From assembly GCF_000223905.1 (NCBI RefSeq), contig NC_015948.1:2356001-2420000 (forward strand): a stretch of 64,000 bases of DNA. The letters run 5' to 3'. Both the position numbers and the translations under genes were made by a program. The notes below the pieces were generated by a model. It was not told where the DNA came from and did not search any database. It saw only the letters and a program-made list of their open reading frames with translations. This stretch comes from Haloarcula hispanica ATCC 33960. Its GTDB lineage: Archaea; Halobacteriota; Halobacteria; Halobacteriales; Haloarculaceae. Below, piece by piece: positions 40,037 through 49,901 of this stretch. How positions within the stretch are numbered: the stretch's first letter is position 1; each line of letters begins with the position of its first letter.

Positions 40037-40801
40037 TTATTCGTGAGCCAGATTCACTTCGATGACGTTAGCGGCCTGTTGCACCGTGTCGATGAGTTGT
40101 GCTTTGCGGCCCGGCGACTGCAACCGGTTGATGGGCGCGGTGATGCTGATGGCGGCCTCGCGCCGGTCGCCGGTGTCGATGGGGACCCCGACACAACCGG
40201 TTCCGTCGACCCGTTCCTCGGTGTCATCGGCGACCCCGCGCTCCCGGATCGTCTCCAGTTCCGCAAACAGCGTCTCGCGGTCTGTGATGGTGTTGTCCGT
40301 CTCGGCCGGCAGCCCGCGGGTCTCGATGATTTCCGCGACCCGCTCATCGTCGAAACTCGACAGGAGCGCTTTGCCGATAGCGGTCTTGTGGAGGTGGATG
40401 CGCTTCCCGAGGCGCGTATCGAGCGCGACCGCCTGGTCGCCGCTGGTGGTGTGGATGTAGATGCCGTAGCCCTGCTCCTCAATCATCAGGTTCGCCAGTT
40501 CGCCGGTCTCGACGGCCATCCGTCTGACCTCGGGCTTTGCCACCTCGTAGATGCCGTCGTAGCGCTGTGCCATGCCGCCGAACTCCAGCCACCGGAGCCC
40601 GATGCGGTACTCGCCGTCCCGTTCCACGACCAGTCCCTCGTCTTCTAGCGTCACCAGGTGTTTGTATATCGTGCTCTTGGCCGGGTCCAGCGAGTCGGCG
40701 AGTTCGACCAGCGTGGCGCTCCCGCCGAGGTCTTTGATTCCCGAGAGGACCGACAGCGAGGTCTGCGTCGCCCGGACCGAGTCCGTTTTTGCCCGTGTCA
40801 T
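40037..40801 (-). CDS. IclR-family transcriptional regulator
   Basis: A 254-residue regulator with an N-terminal winged HTH (about 12-75: SATLVELADSLDPAKSTIYKHLVTLED) and the C-terminal IclR effector domain (about 85-245: LANLMIEEQGYGIYI, RIHLHKTAIGKALLSS, GTGCVGVPI). It is divergent from malate synthase aceB with a 414-bp intergenic region that contains paired sites resembling IclR operators. Its own promoter has a palindrome between TATA box and start codon, which suggests negative autoregulation. A role in acetate/glyoxylate control is inferred from position only. Confidence 0.9.
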   Translation of the reverse strand: MTRAKTDSVRATQTSLSVLSGIKDLGGSATLVELADSLDPAKSTIYKHLVTLEDEGLVVERDGEYRIGLRWLEFGGMAQRYDGIYEVAKPEVRRMAVETGELANLMIEEQGYGIYIHTTSGDQAVALDTRLGKRIHLHKTAIGKALLSSFDDERVAEIIETRGLPAETDNTITDRETLFAELETIRERGVADDTEERVDGTGCVGVPIDTGDRREAAISITAPINRLQSPGRKAQLIDTVQQAANVIEVNLAHE

Positions 40802-40826: not shown

Positions 40827-40834
40827 AATAAAAT
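40827..40834 (-). promoter_or_regulatory. TATA box of the IclR-family gene
   Basis: The sequence ATTTTATT on the minus strand is centred about 29 bp from the ATG, so the transcript is leaderless and the 18-bp palindrome sits in between. Confidence 0.65.
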
Positions 40835-40927
40835 TGCCGTATCGGTTGTGACAATCGCTCTACGGTAGCTTCCGAGGCTTGACGCACGGCGAAGTGGGCG
40901 TCACCAGTCTCTACAACCGTCACAGGC

Positions 40928-41119
40928 ATTCGGAAATACGAAACGGAAAGGTGGGTTCAATAGCGCGAAGCCAGCGACCGAAGTCGCCGGGGGCTCCGTG
41001 ATGTGGCGACTGAACGGTCGCGAGATATCGACAGAGCGGTGTGCACCGCCGACCGTTGTGTCGTCCGGGCGCACGAGTAGTGAAAGAAAATATAGCATAC
41101 ATATTTCGTATTTCCGAAT
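40928..41119. repeat. Perfect 16-bp inverted repeats bounding 192 bp upstream of aceB
   Basis: ATTCGGAAATACGAAA at 40928-40943 is repeated as its exact reverse complement at 41104-41119. Each copy contains TTCG-N6-CGAA and is therefore a quasi-palindrome on its own. This can be two sites for one dimeric regulator, or the terminal repeats of a small MITE-like element. I see no flanking direct duplication. Confidence 0.75.
40974..41021. repeat. Nested hairpin upstream of aceB
   Basis: Two stems are in register: GCGACCG (40974-40980) pairs with CGGTCGC (41015-41021), and GTCGCC (40983-40988) pairs with GGCGAC (41005-41010). A further hairpin, GCGGTG-TG-CACCGC, follows at 41036-41049. The potential to fold is strong in DNA or RNA. 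Confidence 0.6.
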
Positions 41120-41180
41120 CCGCTGAAAGACGGTGGAACGACCGCTCTCGTCGATGTTTCGGTCGATAGTGGACGGTAGA

Positions 41181-41186
41181 TTTAAG
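41181..41186 (+). promoter_or_regulatory. TATA box of aceB
   Basis: The sequence tttaag is centred about 32 bp before ATG 41216, predicting a leader of only about five bases. Confidence 0.55.
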
Positions 41187-41215: not shown

Positions 41216-42523
41216 ATGAGTGTGAAACGACACTACGACCGCGAGTTCGTCAGAACGTTCTTTACCTCTCCAACAGCAGTCGACGGGGAGGACGATTCAG
41301 CGAAGATGCTGCGAAGCGCGGGCCAGCTCCGCGGCCTGCAGGCCCCGGATGTCTGGGTCCCGGACAACGAGGACGCGACGGCACCGAACATGCGCGAGGA
41401 GGGCGTCGAGAACATCATCGAAGTGGTCTCAGAACAGGGTGCCGAGTTCCCCGGCGAGATCCACCCGCGCGTCGTCTGGCACCGCGAGTCCCCGACGACC
41501 CGCTATCAGGGCTTCCAGCAGATGCTCGAAATTACCGACCCCGAAAACGGTGCGGTCGAGCACATCGACGGCTTCGTCATCCCGGAGGTCGGCGACATCG
41601 ACGACTGGAAGAAGGCCGACGAGTTCTTCACCATCATCGAGCACGAGCACGGACTGGAGGAGGGGAGCCTCTCCATGTCGGTCATCGTCGAGAGCGGCGA
41701 GGCCGAACTGGCGATGGGCGACCTGCGCGAGGAGATGGGCAAGCCCTCGAACAACCTCGAACGTATGTTCCTGCTCGTCGACGGCGAGGTCGACTACACG
41801 AAGGATATGCGCGCGATGACGCCTACCGGCGAACTCCCGCCGTGGCCGGAACTGCGCCACAACACCTCCCGCGGTGCCAGCGCCGCCGGCCTTATCGCCG
41901 TCGACGGCCCCTACGACGATATCCGCGACGTCGAGGGGTACCGCGAGCGGATGAAGGACAACCGCGCGAAGGGGATGACTGGCATCTGGTCGCTGACACC
42001 GGGGCAAGTCGTGGAGGCGAACACGGCCCCGCTCCCGCCAAAGACCGGGAGCTGGCTGCTCGACGTCGGCGGTCAGGAGGTCGAACTCGACGCACAGGAC
42101 GGCAAGCAGGTGTACGACGGCGACGACCTCTCGCTGGAAACGGACGGCGAGGGCGGCTACGTCCTGCAGGCGGGCGGTGACCGGCTGGAACTGGACGAGG
42201 ACGAACTCACCGAGGAACTGCTCGACCGCACCGCGTACATCCCCAGCATGACCGACATCGTCGACTCGATGGAGGAGTTCGAGGCCGCGAAGGAGGCCGG
42301 CAAGGGAGCCATCGCGATGACTCAGGCCGCGACGCTGGTCATCGACGGCGTCGAAGTCGAGGTCAGTAAAGACCGGATGTGGGACGAAGCGACCTACCAG
42401 GCCGCCCAGACACCCATCACGCTGTTCCAGGACGTGTACGAGCACCGCCCGGACCAGCACGAGGAACTGGCGGAGATGTACGGCACTGACATCGTCGAAC
42501 GCGCCACGGCTGTCGGCAACTAA
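41216..42523 (+). CDS. aceB: Malate synthase, haloarchaeal type
   Basis: A 435-residue enzyme condensing glyoxylate with acetyl-CoA to malate. It belongs to the distinct short haloarchaeal malate synthase (MSH), related to the citrate lyase beta/HpcH fold, and its sequence is close to the Haloferax enzyme as I recall it (DREFVRTFFTSPTAV at the start, WVPDNEDATAPNMR, EIHPRVVWHR, LRHNTSRGASAAGL). Start ATG 41216 gives MSVKRHYDREF. No isocitrate lyase gene is adjacent. In Haloarcula the glyoxylate may come from the methylaspartate cycle rather than the glyoxylate shunt. Divergent from an IclR-type gene. Confidence 0.95.
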   Translation: MSVKRHYDREFVRTFFTSPTAVDGEDDSAKMLRSAGQLRGLQAPDVWVPDNEDATAPNMREEGVENIIEVVSEQGAEFPGEIHPRVVWHRESPTTRYQGFQQMLEITDPENGAVEHIDGFVIPEVGDIDDWKKADEFFTIIEHEHGLEEGSLSMSVIVESGEAELAMGDLREEMGKPSNNLERMFLLVDGEVDYTKDMRAMTPTGELPPWPELRHNTSRGASAAGLIAVDGPYDDIRDVEGYRERMKDNRAKGMTGIWSLTPGQVVEANTAPLPPKTGSWLLDVGGQEVELDAQDGKQVYDGDDLSLETDGEGGYVLQAGGDRLELDEDELTEELLDRTAYIPSMTDIVDSMEEFEAAKEAGKGAIAMTQAATLVIDGVEVEVSKDRMWDEATYQAAQTPITLFQDVYEHRPDQHEELAEMYGTDIVERATAVGN

Positions 42524-42568: not shown

Positions 42569-42949
42569 TCAGTCTTCCAGCGGTTCGATGAGTTCGACGT
42601 GGTGGCCGTCGGGGTCCGCGACGAAGGCCGTGTACGCGCCGGCCTCCGGCTGTGGGCCGGGCTCTTTGACGACGCCGTGATGATCGATGCGGTCGACCGT
42701 CGCGTCGACATCGTCCACGCCGAGAGCGAGATGGTCCCAGCCGGACCCCATCTCGAAGCTCGTCTCCCCGTCCGTTTCTGCCAGTTGCAGTTCGACGCCG
42801 CTGTCGTCGGCCACGTAGTAGTTCGTCGTCTCGCCGTCGGGCGTGGTGAACTGCCAGGACTCCTCGAAGCCGAACTGCTCGTAGAACGCGATCGATGCTG
42901 TGGCGTCGGCCACGTTCAGGCACATATGAAGGATGCTTGCATTGCCCAT
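42569..42949 (-). CDS. Glyoxalase/VOC-family protein
   Basis: A 126-residue vicinal-oxygen-chelate protein with two beta-alpha-beta-beta-beta modules: HMCLNVADATASIAFYEQFG (about 8-27) and HLALGVDDVDATVDRIDHHG, ending DPDGHHVELIEPLED. The typical metal ligands His (residue 8), Glu and His/Glu near the end are visible. It resembles lactoylglutathione lyase-type proteins, but haloarchaea lack glutathione, so the substrate is uncertain. ATG 42949 fits the fold; a longer frame adds a poor leader. Divergent from the YdiJ-like gene. Confidence 0.88.
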   Translation of the reverse strand: MGNASILHMCLNVADATASIAFYEQFGFEESWQFTTPDGETTNYYVADDSGVELQLAETDGETSFEMGSGWDHLALGVDDVDATVDRIDHHGVVKEPGPQPEAGAYTAFVADPDGHHVELIEPLED

Positions 42950-43051: not shown

Positions 43052-46000
43052 ATGGCGATCGAAAATGTCGAGGACACCTGGTCAGCACAGGAACTGGACC
43101 TCGACCGACCGGACGTGGATGCGTACCGGGACCTGGCGGAAGCGCTTCGCTCGCGGGTCTCGGGTGGGGTCGAGTTCGACGAATACGCCCGGATTCTGTA
43201 CGCAACGGACGGGAGCATCTATCGCGCCGAACCAGCCGGGGTCGTGTACCCGACTGATACCGACGACGTGCGGGCGGCCGTCGAGGTGGCGACGAGCCAC
43301 GGCGTCCCGATCATGCCCCGCGGGACCGGGTCGTCGCTCGCCGGACAGACCGTCGGTCCGGGCTGTGTCGTGCTAGACCTGTCCCGGCACATGGACGGTA
43401 TCCTCGATATTCGGCCGGGCGAGCAGACGGCGCACATCCAGCCCGGCGTGGTGCAGGACGACCTGGACGACACGCTGGCCGAGTACGGCCTGAAGTTCGC
43501 GCCGGATCCGGCATCGTCGAACCGCGCCTCTGTCGGCGGCGGCATCGGAAACAACTCCACCGGCGCACACTCCGTCAGGTACGGCATCACCGACGCCTAC
43601 ACAGATGCGGTGAAAGCTGTCCTCTCTGACGGCTCACTCATCCACGCCCGCGAGGTCGTCATCGACTCGCCGGAGTGGGACGACATCGTGAGCAAAGACG
43701 ACCGCGAGGCCGACATCTATCAGACGGTCCGCGAAGTCGTCGAGGAGAACGCAAGCGAAATCGAGGACCGCTACCCTGACCTCAAGCGCCGGGTGTCTGG
43801 CTACAACCTCGACCGCGTTATCTACGAAAACGACGACGGCGAGCGCGTGCTGAACCTCGCGAAGCTGTTTGTCGGGAGCGAGGGGACCCTCGGGGTCATT
43901 GTCGAAGCCGAACTTTCGCTGGTGACCGTCCCCGAGGAGACCGCGCTGGCGCTGTACTGCTTTGACACGCTTCCCGATGCGATGCGGGCTGTCCCGGTCG
44001 CGCTTGACTACGATGTCAGCGCGGTCGAGTTGATGGACGACGAGATGTTCAGGCTCGCAGCCGGCTCCGACGGCTACGCCGAGTACGTCGACCCGATTCC
44101 GGACCGAGCGGCCGCGGCGTTGATGCTCGAATACGACTCGGAATTGCACGATGACTTCGAGGCGGCCATCGCGCGGACCAACGAACGGTTCCTCGATAAC
44201 GGAGCGGCCTTTGACGTGGTGGAAGCCTACACCGACGCCGACCAGGCTGACCTCTGGAAGCTCCGCAAAGCCGCGATTCCGCTCCTGATGTCCATGGACG
44301 GCGACCCCAAACCGTACCCGTTCATCGAGGACGCGACGGTCCCGCCCGCCGAACTGGCCGAGTACGTCGAGAAGTTCGAGGAGGTGCTGGCCGACCACGA
44401 CACCTCGGCCGCGTACTTCGCCCACGCCGGCTCCGGAACACTCCACATCCGCCCGATTCTCAACCTGAAGGAGGAATCCGGTATCGAAGACATGCACTCC
44501 ATCACCGACGACGTGACCGACCTCGTGCTCGAACACAATGGGTCGTTCTCCGGTGAGCACGGCGACGGGATGGCCCGGACGGAGTTCACGCCCAAGATGT
44601 ACGGCGAGGACCTCTGGGACGCGTTCAAGCAGGTCAAGACGGCCTTCGACCCGCAGTGGTGGATGCACCCGGGCAACGTCGTCTACCGCGATGACCCGGA
44701 CGATATCGGCCCAGACGCTGACCGGGGTGTCGGCGCGGACATGCGCGAGAATCTCCGGTACGGTCCTGACTACCAGTCCCTGGAGCCACAGACGACGCTC
44801 GACTTCGCGGACGAGGGCGGCTTCTCCGAGCTGGTCGAACTGTGTAACGGCTGTGGGACCTGCCGACAGACCGACGGGGACGTGATGTGTCCAACGTACC
44901 GCGCCTCGGAGGAGGAGGTCCAGACGACGCGCGGCCGTGCGAACCTCCTCCGGTCGGCTATCAGCGGCGACCTCAGCGAGGACGAGATTCACTCCGACCG
45001 CTTCCAGGAGGAAGTGCTCGACCTCTGTGTCGGCTGCAAGGGCTGCAAGAGCGACTGCCCGACCGGCGTCGACATGGCGAAACTCAAAACCGAGCTGAAA
45101 CACCAGCACCACGAAGCGGAGGGGGCCAGCCGCCGGGAGCGCCTGTTCGCCAACATCGACACGGCCTCGAAGGTCGGGTCGGCGCTGGCACCGGTCTCGA
45201 ACTGGGCGACGGACATCCCGGGCGCGCGGACCGTTATGCAGAAACTGTTCGGCATCGCGCCGGAGCGCGAACTCCCCACCTTCAGCCGGGAGACATTCCA
45301 AGACTGGTTCGATGCACGCGGTGGCTCGACCGTCTCGCGGGCCGAAGCCGACCGCAAAGTCCTGCTGTTCCCCGATACGTACACGAACTACTCGTACCCG
45401 ACGGCCGGCAAGGCCGCCGTCGAAACGCTGGAAGCCGCAGGCGTCCACGTCACCATTCCGGACAACACCGCGCCGTCCGGGCGAGCGGCTTACTCCACCG
45501 GAATGCTGGACCTGGCTCGCGAGCGGGCCGAGACGAACGCGAATCGGCTGTCGGATCGCGTCGCGGAGGGGTGGGACATCGTGTTCGTCGAGCCCTCCGA
45601 TGCCGTGATGTTCCAGGACGAGTACCGCGACCTGCTCGACGGCCCCGAAGTCTCGCGGGTGGCTGAGAGCGCCTACGGCGTGCTGGAGTATCTCGATACC
45701 TTCCGGCTCGACGACGCGCTGCCGGTCGAGGACCGGTCGCTCGGGGCCGCCGGCGCGGTCAGCTATCACGGCCACTGCAACCAGAAGGGGACCAACAAGG
45801 ATCACCACGCCGTCGGCGTCATGCGTCGCGTCGGCTACGAGGTCGACCCGCTCGATTCGACGTGCTGTGGCATGGCCGGAAGCTTCGGCTACCACGACGA
45901 GCACTACGATCTCTCGAAGACTATCGGCCGGCTGCTGTTCGATAAGGTCGAGGAGAGCGACGGCGACCGCGTCGTTGCCCCTGGTGGGTCCTGCCGCTCG

Positions 46001-46102
46001 CAGTTGGGTGACCGCGACGGCGTCGACGAGCTCCCGCCCCATCCTATCGAAGTTGTCGCCGAGCGACTACCAGACACAGCGACGACCTCACGGTCGGCGT
46101 GA
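43052..46102 (+). CDS. FAD-linked and Fe-S 2-hydroxyacid dehydrogenase (YdiJ/GlcD-GlpC type)
   Basis: A 1,016-residue fusion. The N-terminal FAD-binding PCMH domain (about 40-270) has MPRGTGSSLAGQTVG near 88-102; a FAD-oxidase C domain follows (to about 540). Next come two [4Fe-4S] motifs, CNGCGTCRQTDGDVMC near 597-612 and CVGCKGCKSDC near 661-671, and C-terminal CCG-type cysteine domains (GHCNQKG, TCCGMAGSFGYH near 936). The length and order equal those of E. coli YdiJ. Such enzymes oxidise D-lactate or D-2-hydroxyglutarate and pass electrons to the membrane. The LarA-like gene downstream favours a 2-hydroxyacid substrate. Confidence 0.93.
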   Translation: MAIENVEDTWSAQELDLDRPDVDAYRDLAEALRSRVSGGVEFDEYARILYATDGSIYRAEPAGVVYPTDTDDVRAAVEVATSHGVPIMPRGTGSSLAGQTVGPGCVVLDLSRHMDGILDIRPGEQTAHIQPGVVQDDLDDTLAEYGLKFAPDPASSNRASVGGGIGNNSTGAHSVRYGITDAYTDAVKAVLSDGSLIHAREVVIDSPEWDDIVSKDDREADIYQTVREVVEENASEIEDRYPDLKRRVSGYNLDRVIYENDDGERVLNLAKLFVGSEGTLGVIVEAELSLVTVPEETALALYCFDTLPDAMRAVPVALDYDVSAVELMDDEMFRLAAGSDGYAEYVDPIPDRAAAALMLEYDSELHDDFEAAIARTNERFLDNGAAFDVVEAYTDADQADLWKLRKAAIPLLMSMDGDPKPYPFIEDATVPPAELAEYVEKFEEVLADHDTSAAYFAHAGSGTLHIRPILNLKEESGIEDMHSITDDVTDLVLEHNGSFSGEHGDGMARTEFTPKMYGEDLWDAFKQVKTAFDPQWWMHPGNVVYRDDPDDIGPDADRGVGADMRENLRYGPDYQSLEPQTTLDFADEGGFSELVELCNGCGTCRQTDGDVMCPTYRASEEEVQTTRGRANLLRSAISGDLSEDEIHSDRFQEEVLDLCVGCKGCKSDCPTGVDMAKLKTELKHQHHEAEGASRRERLFANIDTASKVGSALAPVSNWATDIPGARTVMQKLFGIAPERELPTFSRETFQDWFDARGGSTVSRAEADRKVLLFPDTYTNYSYPTAGKAAVETLEAAGVHVTIPDNTAPSGRAAYSTGMLDLARERAETNANRLSDRVAEGWDIVFVEPSDAVMFQDEYRDLLDGPEVSRVAESAYGVLEYLDTFRLDDALPVEDRSLGAAGAVSYHGHCNQKGTNKDHHAVGVMRRVGYEVDPLDSTCCGMAGSFGYHDEHYDLSKTIGRLLFDKVEESDGDRVVAPGGSCRSQLGDRDGVDELPPHPIEVVAERLPDTATTSRSA

Positions 46103-46427: not shown

Positions 46428-47726
46428 TCAGTCCCGGGTAAACGACGCGGTGCCGTCGGTGAACGTGAGCGACTCGCGGCCGGTAACCTCGGCGGCGGTC
46501 GGCAGGTCCTCGACGAGCGGCTCGGAGACGTGCAGTTCGGACAGGTCCTGCGTGGTCTGTATCCAGACGATCCGGACGGTGTCGGGGTCGTAGCCACCGA
46601 GCGCGGACAGCGCCGTCCGGATGGCGAACTCATCGTCCGGCGCAACGAGGGGGAGCTTCGCCTTCGCCGTTGACCCGCTGGTGAGCGCGTTCGCGTACGT
46701 CTTCTGCAGGTCCAGCTGGTCAACCGCAGCCTGGCGGGTGATATCGGCCAAGCCGATGCCGTTGCCGTTGCCCTTCGTCGCCTCGGTGAGCCCGCGAGCG
46801 TACAGCAGTTTGATCGCCGGCTCGTCGGGGTCCGGCGCGTTGAGGACGCGGTAGCGGCCGATGACGTTCGTGTCCATCCCCGCGCCGGAGACGTCCTTAC
46901 CGAGTTCGTCGACGACGAGCAGGTCGATGTCGTCGACCGGAAGCGTCGCCATCTCGTCGTAGGCCTGCTCCAGCAACGCTGGCTCGCGGTCGGTGAACGA
47001 GCCCGCGGGAATCGCTTCGACGTGGGCCGTCTCCTCGTGGAAGTTCTCGACCAGCGCCACGCCGCCGACAAGCGGCAGTGCCGACTCGACAACCGGGAGT
47101 GCGGTTTCCAGCGCCTCCACGTACCCCTCCTTGATGGCTGTCGAGTGGAACGCTTTCGCGCCGTGTTGCTTCCCCAGCCCGACGACGGTCATTTTCGTCA
47201 GGCCGCTCTCGATGCGGCCGCTGTAGTTGGTGTGGGGCTTCACCCGGTTCACGACGACCACGGCATCCGCTTCCTGTGCCGCCGTCGAGACGTGGACCGG
47301 AAACTCGGTGTCACCGACAGTAACGGTGTCGACCTGTGCAGTGTCCATCCGGGCGTCGATGGGGGCATCCAGGCGTGATTCGGTGATACCAAGACTTTCC
47401 AGCACTTCGCGCTGGCCCTCGGGCGTTGCCCCGCCGTGGCTCCCCATCGCCGGGACGACGACTGGTTCGAAGCCCCGATCACGGATATCCGAAACGACAG
47501 TCTCGACGATGTCGTCGATACGGTGGATGCCACGGCTGCCGACGGCAACGGCAACAGTCGCACCCGCTTCCAGCCCGTCAAAGTCGAGGCGGTCGAGTTC
47601 GGTCCGCGCCGCGGCCGACGGGTCGTCGACGGCGGCCGTCTCCGGCTCGTACCGGACGCGAGCGAAGCCCGGCAGCGGCTGTGGGTCGATAAGGTGGTCC
47701 ACGTCGCCTCGGTCGGGGAAGTTCAT
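46428..47726 (-). CDS. LarA-like (lactate racemase domain, DUF2088) protein
   Basis: A 432-residue protein with the LarA N-domain pattern: VAVAVGSRGI near 60, VPAMGSHGGATPEGQ near 92 with a likely metal/cofactor His, and VVVNRVKPHTNYSG near 160 with a Lys-Pro-His, followed by a C-terminal LarA-like domain. LarA enzymes use a nickel-pincer cofactor to racemise or epimerise 2-hydroxyacids. The nickel-pincer biosynthesis genes (larB, larC, larE) are not in the window. Convergent with a 2-hydroxyacid dehydrogenase, it could feed the D-isomer to that enzyme. Substrate unproven. Confidence 0.8.
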   Translation of the reverse strand: MNFPDRGDVDHLIDPQPLPGFARVRYEPETAAVDDPSAAARTELDRLDFDGLEAGATVAVAVGSRGIHRIDDIVETVVSDIRDRGFEPVVVPAMGSHGGATPEGQREVLESLGITESRLDAPIDARMDTAQVDTVTVGDTEFPVHVSTAAQEADAVVVVNRVKPHTNYSGRIESGLTKMTVVGLGKQHGAKAFHSTAIKEGYVEALETALPVVESALPLVGGVALVENFHEETAHVEAIPAGSFTDREPALLEQAYDEMATLPVDDIDLLVVDELGKDVSGAGMDTNVIGRYRVLNAPDPDEPAIKLLYARGLTEATKGNGNGIGLADITRQAAVDQLDLQKTYANALTSGSTAKAKLPLVAPDDEFAIRTALSALGGYDPDTVRIVWIQTTQDLSELHVSEPLVEDLPTAAEVTGRESLTFTDGTASFTRD

Positions 47727-49091: not shown

Positions 49092-49901
49092 ATGCGAAAC
49101 GTTGATGTCACTAAGCGGTCACAACTCCGTATGCTCGAAAACAAGAACGGAACGTCCGAGGTATCAACGACCCGGACGTCGTTCGAGATTCTGGCGCTGA
49201 TTCGGGACGCGGGAGGCGCGACAATTGCGGAGATTCGGGCGGAGACGGACCTGGCCAAGAGCACGGTGTATCGGCACCTCAAGACGCTGCACGACATGGA
49301 CTATCTCGTCGAGGAGGACGGGGAGTACCGGCTCTCGCTGCGGTTTCTGCAACTCAGCGAACCGCCGCGGATACGGCGGCCGGGCTATATCGTCGCCAAA
49401 CAGAAAGTCATCGAACTGGCGATAGAGACCGACGAGCGGGCGCTGTTTCTGGTCGAAGAGGGCTTCGAGGGCGTGTATCTCCATCGAGCCGGCGGCCGGA
49501 ATCCCCTGCAGAGCGACACGATGATCGGCAAACGCCGGCCGCTGCACGCGCTCGCCTCGGGAAAAGCCATCCTCGCGGAGTGGCCCGACGAACGCATCGA
49601 GGAGTTCGTCGAAACCACTGCCCTCGAAGAGTTGACGGCGAACACGATTACCGACCGGGACGCGCTGTTCGAGGAACTCGAACAGGTCCGCGAGCGGGGT
49701 TATGCGACCAACATGTCAGAACATATGGACGGCCTGCGGGCGGCTGGCGTGCCGGTGTACAACCACGAGGACGACCTCATCGGCGCGTTGAGCGTCTTCG
49801 GGCCGAATGGCCGGGTGAGCCAGGACGACATCGAATCGACGTACCCCGATCTGCTGGAACGGAAAGCCAGCGAGTTGAAGATCGACCTCACGTACGATTG
49901 A
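49092..49901 (+). CDS. IclR-family transcriptional regulator
   Basis: A 269-residue regulator with an N-terminal HTH (TIAEIRAETDLAKSTVYRHLKTLHDMDYL, about 44-72) and IclR effector domain (about 95-262: FLVEEGFEGVYLHRAG, GKRRPLHALASGKAIL, GLRAAGVPVYN). It is distinct from the regulator near aceB. ATG 49092 or ATG 49131 (MLENKNG) may be used. Neighbours are a serine hydrolase (divergent) and a glutaryl-CoA dehydrogenase-like gene (convergent), so control of acyl-CoA or ester catabolism is plausible but not shown. Confidence 0.88.
   Translation: MRNVDVTKRSQLRMLENKNGTSEVSTTRTSFEILALIRDAGGATIAEIRAETDLAKSTVYRHLKTLHDMDYLVEEDGEYRLSLRFLQLSEPPRIRRPGYIVAKQKVIELAIETDERALFLVEEGFEGVYLHRAGGRNPLQSDTMIGKRRPLHALASGKAILAEWPDERIEEFVETTALEELTANTITDRDALFEELEQVRERGYATNMSEHMDGLRAAGVPVYNHEDDLIGALSVFGPNGRVSQDDIESTYPDLLERKASELKIDLTYD

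Follow-up and report, generated by a model that had tools for sequence, protein, structure and literature searches.

Conserved inverted sites between an IclR-family gene and aceB in Haloarcula are the probable operators of a local archaeal circuit for malate synthase

Introduction

The literature that we searched has little to say on the operators of archaeal IclR-family regulators, and a short inverted repeat between an iclR-family gene and the malate synthase gene aceB of Haloarcula hispanica ATCC 33960, a genetically tractable species, raises the question of whether its two arms are the binding sites of a regulator and, if so, which metabolism this regulator serves. A first-pass annotation of the stretch of DNA analyzed here (the window, 64,000 nucleotides of contig NC_015948.1) had likened the arms to the E. 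coli IclR box, GGAAAT/ATTTCC, and suggested an archaeal counterpart of the aceBAK circuit, with a MITE as the alternative. The locus combines a defined 14-bp site with a regulator that can be tested and a pair of predicted promoters, and pattern searches indicate only one target in the genome.

Results

The repeat itself proved real: the 16-mer ATTCGGAAATACGAAA (40928-40943, plus strand; the putative left operator) and its exact reverse complement (41104-41119, minus strand; the putative right operator) span 192 bp end to end, between the divergent iclR-family gene and aceB. Within this intergenic region of 414 bp the longest exact inverted repeat is 16 bp long, compared to 6-12 bp in 150 Markov shuffles, and the pair is the sole exact 16-mer inverted repeat of the window with arms less than 2 kb apart. 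Allowing up to three mismatches, no further match to ATTCGGAAATACGAAA was found within the window (0.16 expected, the mean of dinucleotide shuffles of the window), and a search of the whole genome (3,890,005 bases, or 3.89 Mb, in three contigs, the largest of 2,995,271) recovered exactly two copies of the core 14-mer, both in the iclR-aceB gap, and no match at one mismatch. The dispersed recurrence that the first-pass annotation had named as refuting its operator idea was thus looked for and not found.

The gene to the left (40037-40801, minus strand) encodes a protein of 254 amino acids, for which we propose the name AceR, with the architecture of the IclR family, namely an N-terminal IclR HTH (PF09339, E=4.5e-6, 26.8 bits, cut-off 22) and a C-terminal IclR effector domain (PF01614, E=1.2e-37, 129.6 bits, cut-off 24). 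Its best NCBIfam match was BhcR (NF045644), at 149.5 bits under the equivalog cut-off of 350, and it scored 81.9 bits against the E. coli-type IclR equivalog (NF008601), under the cut-off of 380. An orthologue of AceR (71-99% identity) lies beside aceB in 15 of the 32 genomes of the genus that we examined, its own included, and the next best matches reach at most 47% identity.

To the right, aceB (41216-42523, plus strand) encodes a haloarchaeal malate synthase / malyl-CoA lyase-thioesterase of 435 amino acids that passes the NCBIfam equivalog for this enzyme (NF041315, MSH; 858.9 bits, cut-off 780); between the H. marismortui protein and the H. volcanii MSH, identity is 81% (PMC3112382). A VOC/glyoxalase-family gene (42569-42946, minus strand; PF00903, E=2e-20), a conserved neighbor in Haloarcula, separates aceB from a gene for a GlcD-GlcF-type fusion oxidase of 1016 amino acids (43052-46102, plus strand), made up of FAD domains, a 4Fe-4S part and CCG (PF02913, PF01565, PF13183 and PF02754). 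The oxidase fell under every NCBIfam equivalog cut-off, and no operator was seen upstream of its gene. Among the genomes of the genus that are at least 90% complete, an orthologue of the oxidase (at least 82% identity) was present in 17/17 with aceB versus 2/12 lacking it, and so the oxidase is likely a functional partner of aceB. Adjoining the oxidase gene, and likewise conserved in Haloarcula loci, is a gene for a nickel-pincer-cofactor isomerase of group 22 (46428-47726, minus strand; NF052515, 495 bits, passing the cut-off of 400), which may provide the oxidase with a hydroxyacid of D or L form.

We then compared the iclR-aceB gap across relatives, using 80 named haloarchaeal aceB loci and the 32 Haloarcula genomes. 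Both sites recurred at near-identical positions in 15/15 of the genomes carrying AceR beside aceB (32 searched), with two TTCG-N6-CGAA-type sites at roughly -286 and -111 relative to the aceB ATG in every such locus. Scored against the IUPAC consensus TTCGRAAWDRCGAA, the left site matched at 14/14 positions, and the right site at 13-14 of 14, in each of the 15 species that have the module. The half-sites are near-invariant among these 30 sites (TTCG in 30, C in 28 and GAAA in 30; CGAA(A) in 28), while the six central bases drift, mostly within RAAWDR, and the conserved element reads RTTCG-RAAWDR-CGAAAY. In an alignment of the region, mean pairwise identity in 14-bp windows was 0.93 at the left site and 0.84 at the right, against a regional mean of 0.71, and the top other peaks of conservation were the two promoter regions. 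Even where AceR is 71% identical (G017), both sites are kept, with the common altered core GAATGG.

The same comparison revised two features on which the first-pass annotation had relied. The copies, identical in H. hispanica, differ in the core in most relatives, and GGAAAT, which had suggested a likeness to the E. coli IclR boxes, occurs in 5/30 orthologous sites versus 30/30 for TTCG and 28/30 for CGAA; since it is kept in so few, its match to the E. coli box arose by chance in the variable core, and the 30-site comparison rules it out as the recognition word.

The idea that the operators belong to the adjacent IclR gene and to aceB held up better. A 15-bp IUPAC pattern, TTCGRAAWDRCGAAA, matched in exactly the 15 genomes with an AceR orthologue and in 0/17 without one, and a reversed control of the pattern gave no match in the 32 genomes; with genomes at least 90% complete, the 2x2 table of AceR against the site read 15/0/0/14. 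The sites are also absent from G010 and G020, two genomes with aceB that lack AceR. As regulator and sites adjoin, this co-occurrence could reflect joint inheritance of one locus.

Elsewhere in the genus, the pattern searches turned up one coding match and, in six species, a coincidence at a gene start, and no other recurrent noncoding site. The recurrent match, TTCGGAATGACGAAA, was set aside as an extra target, since it falls on the start of a gene and covers an SD/ATG-like sequence, and an AT-rich near-match downstream of an acyl-CoA-synthetase-like gene (C3:1871321) was rejected as well, not being conserved in the relative examined (G024). Upstream of the 10 other IclR paralogues of the genome we found paired sites in none, and a single loose TTCG-N6-CGAA in one. 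Because the site pattern is confined to this locus in genome-wide searches, AceR looks like a local, single-target regulator.

Both sites are accompanied by predicted promoters. A probable TATA box of iclR, AATTTTAT (40828-40835, minus strand), lies ~30 bp before the iclR ATG in windows of 0.90-0.93 mean pairwise identity (14 bp each; regional mean 0.71), and a mostly invariant block, GGACGGTAGATTTAAG (41168-41186, plus strand), constitutes the putative BRE/TATA region of aceB. In the 14-bp windows at 41171 and 41172, identity reaches 100% across 14 sequences, which makes this the most conserved intergenic stretch, and GGACGGTAGATTTAAG may be more than BRE/TATA. A near copy of it, ACGGTAGCTT, is found at 40862-40871.

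With respect to these predicted promoters, the right operator is placed 61 bp upstream of the ATTTAA box of aceB in 14/14 species with the box, and the left operator ~93 bp upstream of the probable iclR TATA box; neither overlaps a TATA box, and both are clear of the likely transcription starts. Distances on the left vary more, with a left-right start spacing of 167-177 bp and a left-site-to-iclR distance of 119-355 bp. Since few indels are expected in 61 bp, the fixed gap is not strong statistically, and as a sign of activation it is suggestive only.

Turning to the metabolic setting, we took a census of gene neighbors at 64 haloarchaeal aceB loci whose flanks are nearly complete, scoring IclR and oxidase genes within 6 kb. 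An isocitrate-lyase-family gene, called by position and by sub-cut-off matches to isocitrate/methylisocitrate lyase models, stands beside aceB in 31 of the 64, and none of these 31 has an IclR or GlcD-GlcF-type oxidase gene within 6 kb. Conversely, 24 loci have an IclR gene, 21 of them together with a GlcD-GlcF-type 2-hydroxyacid oxidase gene and none with isocitrate lyase (Fisher values for these counts ignore relatedness). In four genomes that carry two aceB genes, both kinds occur, one copy of each (L031/L077, L035/L064, L039/L073 and L062/L029); H. volcanii, too, is reported to have two copies, aceB1, assigned from where it lies with respect to isocitrate lyase, and aceB2 (PMC3112382). Within the genus Haloarcula, a haloarchaeal AceA query found no isocitrate lyase relative in the 32 genomes (E<=1e-60), and the same query matches beside aceB at 38 other haloarchaeal loci.

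The proposed parallel with aceBAK and acetate thus stood in part: an IclR-family gene does lie near malate synthase, but no isocitrate lyase was found in the 32 genomes of the genus and the partner is an oxidase. As the linked partner, the GlcD-GlcF-type oxidase points to glycolate/glyoxylate. Judged by gene content, the circuit looks closer to glycolate/glyoxylate assimilation, of the BhcR or malate synthase G kind, than to the glyoxylate shunt, and the oxidase could work alongside the aceB-AceR module as a supplier of glyoxylate. That the haloarchaeal IclR-aceB link goes with the oxidase and not with isocitrate lyase redirects the physiological question, which acetate alone does not cover, toward glycolate and other 2-hydroxyacids.

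We also considered a link to the methylaspartate cycle, of which glutamate mutase is present in most genomes of the genus, and rejected it, as the presence of glutamate mutase tracks neither aceB nor AceR within the genus. Eleven genomes with glutamate mutase (G002, G006, G008, G009, G012, G014, G015, G016, G018, G021 and G022) have a 39-42%-identical lyase relative only, and no AceB orthologue.

The IclR proteins encoded next to aceB fall into separate clades, comprising Haloarcula; Halobellus and Saliphagus; Natrialbaceae; and Haloferax, Haladaptatus and H. salina, some deep branches being weak. The Haloarcula site is absent from the aceB upstream regions of the other IclR clades, those of Halobellus and Natrialbaceae with their other IclRs among them. 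Separate clades and the lack of the site therefore make it likely, to the extent that the weak deep branches can be relied on, that different IclRs were recruited to aceB. The tree of aceB was a quick one. More tentatively, at slightly short of even odds, aceB would come in two genomic classes, one with isocitrate lyase and without IclR, the other with the oxidase and with IclR, where at least four IclR subfamilies were recruited separately, AceR being one; two such classes would be comparable to the bacterial malate synthases A and G. In Natrialbaceae, aceB promoters have a common, strongly conserved block just upstream, TTTAATATTAGAA, unlike the Haloarcula arrangement (L033, L034, L036, L046, L048, L053, L038, L049, L051, L055 and L078).

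Discussion

The sites are conserved, co-occur with AceR, hold near-fixed positions and occupy, by pattern search, a single genomic location, and they are very probably a real operator pair, belonging to what is probably a local IclR circuit that governs malate synthase in this archaeon. The binding, activation and ligand of this circuit we infer from sequence as follows. A dimer of AceR would bind each near-palindrome, TTCG-N6-CGAA; the right site, by its distance from the aceB TATA box, appears placed for activation of aceB, and the left site would serve autoregulation and/or cooperation with the right site via an IclR tetramer. AceR would probably respond to a small acid from the glyoxylate/glycolate branch, of the 2-oxo or 2-hydroxy type, as its ligand, and aceB would be made when glyoxylate must condense with acetyl-CoA. 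We give this reading as a whole a probability of roughly 0.6.

Glyoxylate itself is one candidate for the ligand. Read by eye from an AllR alignment and a published table (PMC11323563), the glyoxylate-pocket positions of AceR (IclR numbering) retain Asp212 and Ser239, with Gly160 replaced by Ala, Ser241 by Thr and Ile at 161. The two retained residues are also found in KdgR, with which AceR has the motif TAIGK in common, and AceR departs from E. coli IclR at 160, 161 and 241.

The strongest competitor, which we consider unlikely yet deserving of attention, is that AceR is a repressor, its tetramer bridging the two sites, looping the 160-bp spacer and shutting both promoters until released by glyoxylate, as modelled on E. 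coli IclR at aceBAK. A two-site inverted layout with fairly stable spacing would also suit a looping repressor, and E. coli IclR and AllR are repressors released by glyoxylate, IclR being tetrameric (PMC11323563). However, neither site covers a TATA box or likely start, and, as the sites are upstream of the TATA boxes and do not overlap them, activation fits better than occlusion. Moreover, the spacing between left and right differs by as much as 10 bp, but the gap from the right site to the TATA box stays constant. Activator roles have been described for the haloarchaeal IclRs XacR, GacR, RhcR and MscR (PMC11519228), and BhcR is an activator in vivo (PMC11323563). Given the placement of the sites and these haloarchaeal precedents, repression of aceB seems less likely than its activation.

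That the sites bind another regulator, either a global factor or an IclR paralogue, is improbable. Adjacency is no proof that AceR binds here, and the ten further paralogues provide candidates, but the pattern is confined to genomes with an AceR orthologue and, barring the coding and gene-start coincidences, to this locus, and a global factor would require more sites.

It is far less probable still that the arms form a conserved stem, as a transcribed hairpin or RNA element. They are perfectly complementary in H. hispanica, but lie 160 nt apart and upstream of both predicted promoters, and we saw no compensatory changes preserving full pairing; because the copies differ in the core in most relatives, pairing is not what is conserved. 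Finally, the MITE or other dispersed element, whose 16-bp terminal inverted repeats would bound the 192 bp and which inverted ends around a short noncoding stretch do resemble, can be given next to no credence and is refuted within this genome, because the core 14-mer has no exact genomic copies beyond these two, and none at one mismatch, its position is the same in 15 species, and the repeats are retained even though the stretch that separates them drifts.

The AceR circuit as proposed here is like E. coli IclR-aceBAK in that an IclR-family regulator gene lies near a malate synthase gene and glyoxylate-linked control is plausible. It is unlike it in its half-site (TTCG/CGAA, not GGAAAT/ATTTCC), in that no isocitrate lyase was found in the 32 Haloarcula genomes, in its isoform of malate synthase (MSH, CitE-like), and in a regulator that is a probable activator and scores far under the IclR equivalog. 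The E. coli glc system likewise links a malate synthase (G) gene to a glycolate-oxidase-type enzyme and not to isocitrate lyase, but its regulator, GlcC, is of the GntR type, not an IclR, and the Haloarcula oxidase, putatively of the glycolate-oxidase type, is a single fusion protein. Another related regulator is BhcR of the beta-hydroxyaspartate cycle in Paracoccus denitrificans, which is AceR's best NCBIfam match and also has Ile at position 161; there too a divergent iclR-family gene lies beside a glyoxylate-assimilation gene, a palindromic site is predicted upstream of the promoter of the target, and both autoregulation and activation are proposed (PMC11323563). BhcR activates its target, is proposed to repress itself, and binds DNA more weakly with glyoxylate (PMC11323563). 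AceR differs from it in falling short of the equivalog cut-off and in having malate synthase, not the BHAC genes, as its presumed target. XacR, GacR, RhcR and MscR likewise belong to the IclR family and regulate carbon catabolism in haloarchaea (PMC11519228), but the compounds whose use they control are sugars or sugar alcohols, unlike those presumed for AceR. Overall, the switch resembles those by which bacteria handle two-carbon foods, with a docking sequence and gene partners of its own.

A second IclR-family gene of the window (49092-49901, plus strand) lies 9 kb from the first. Its product is 40% identical to AceR and has the PcaR/PcaU family as its best NCBIfam match, below cut-off, and it is located near beta-lactamase-fold, acyl-CoA dehydrogenase-like and aldehyde dehydrogenase-like genes.
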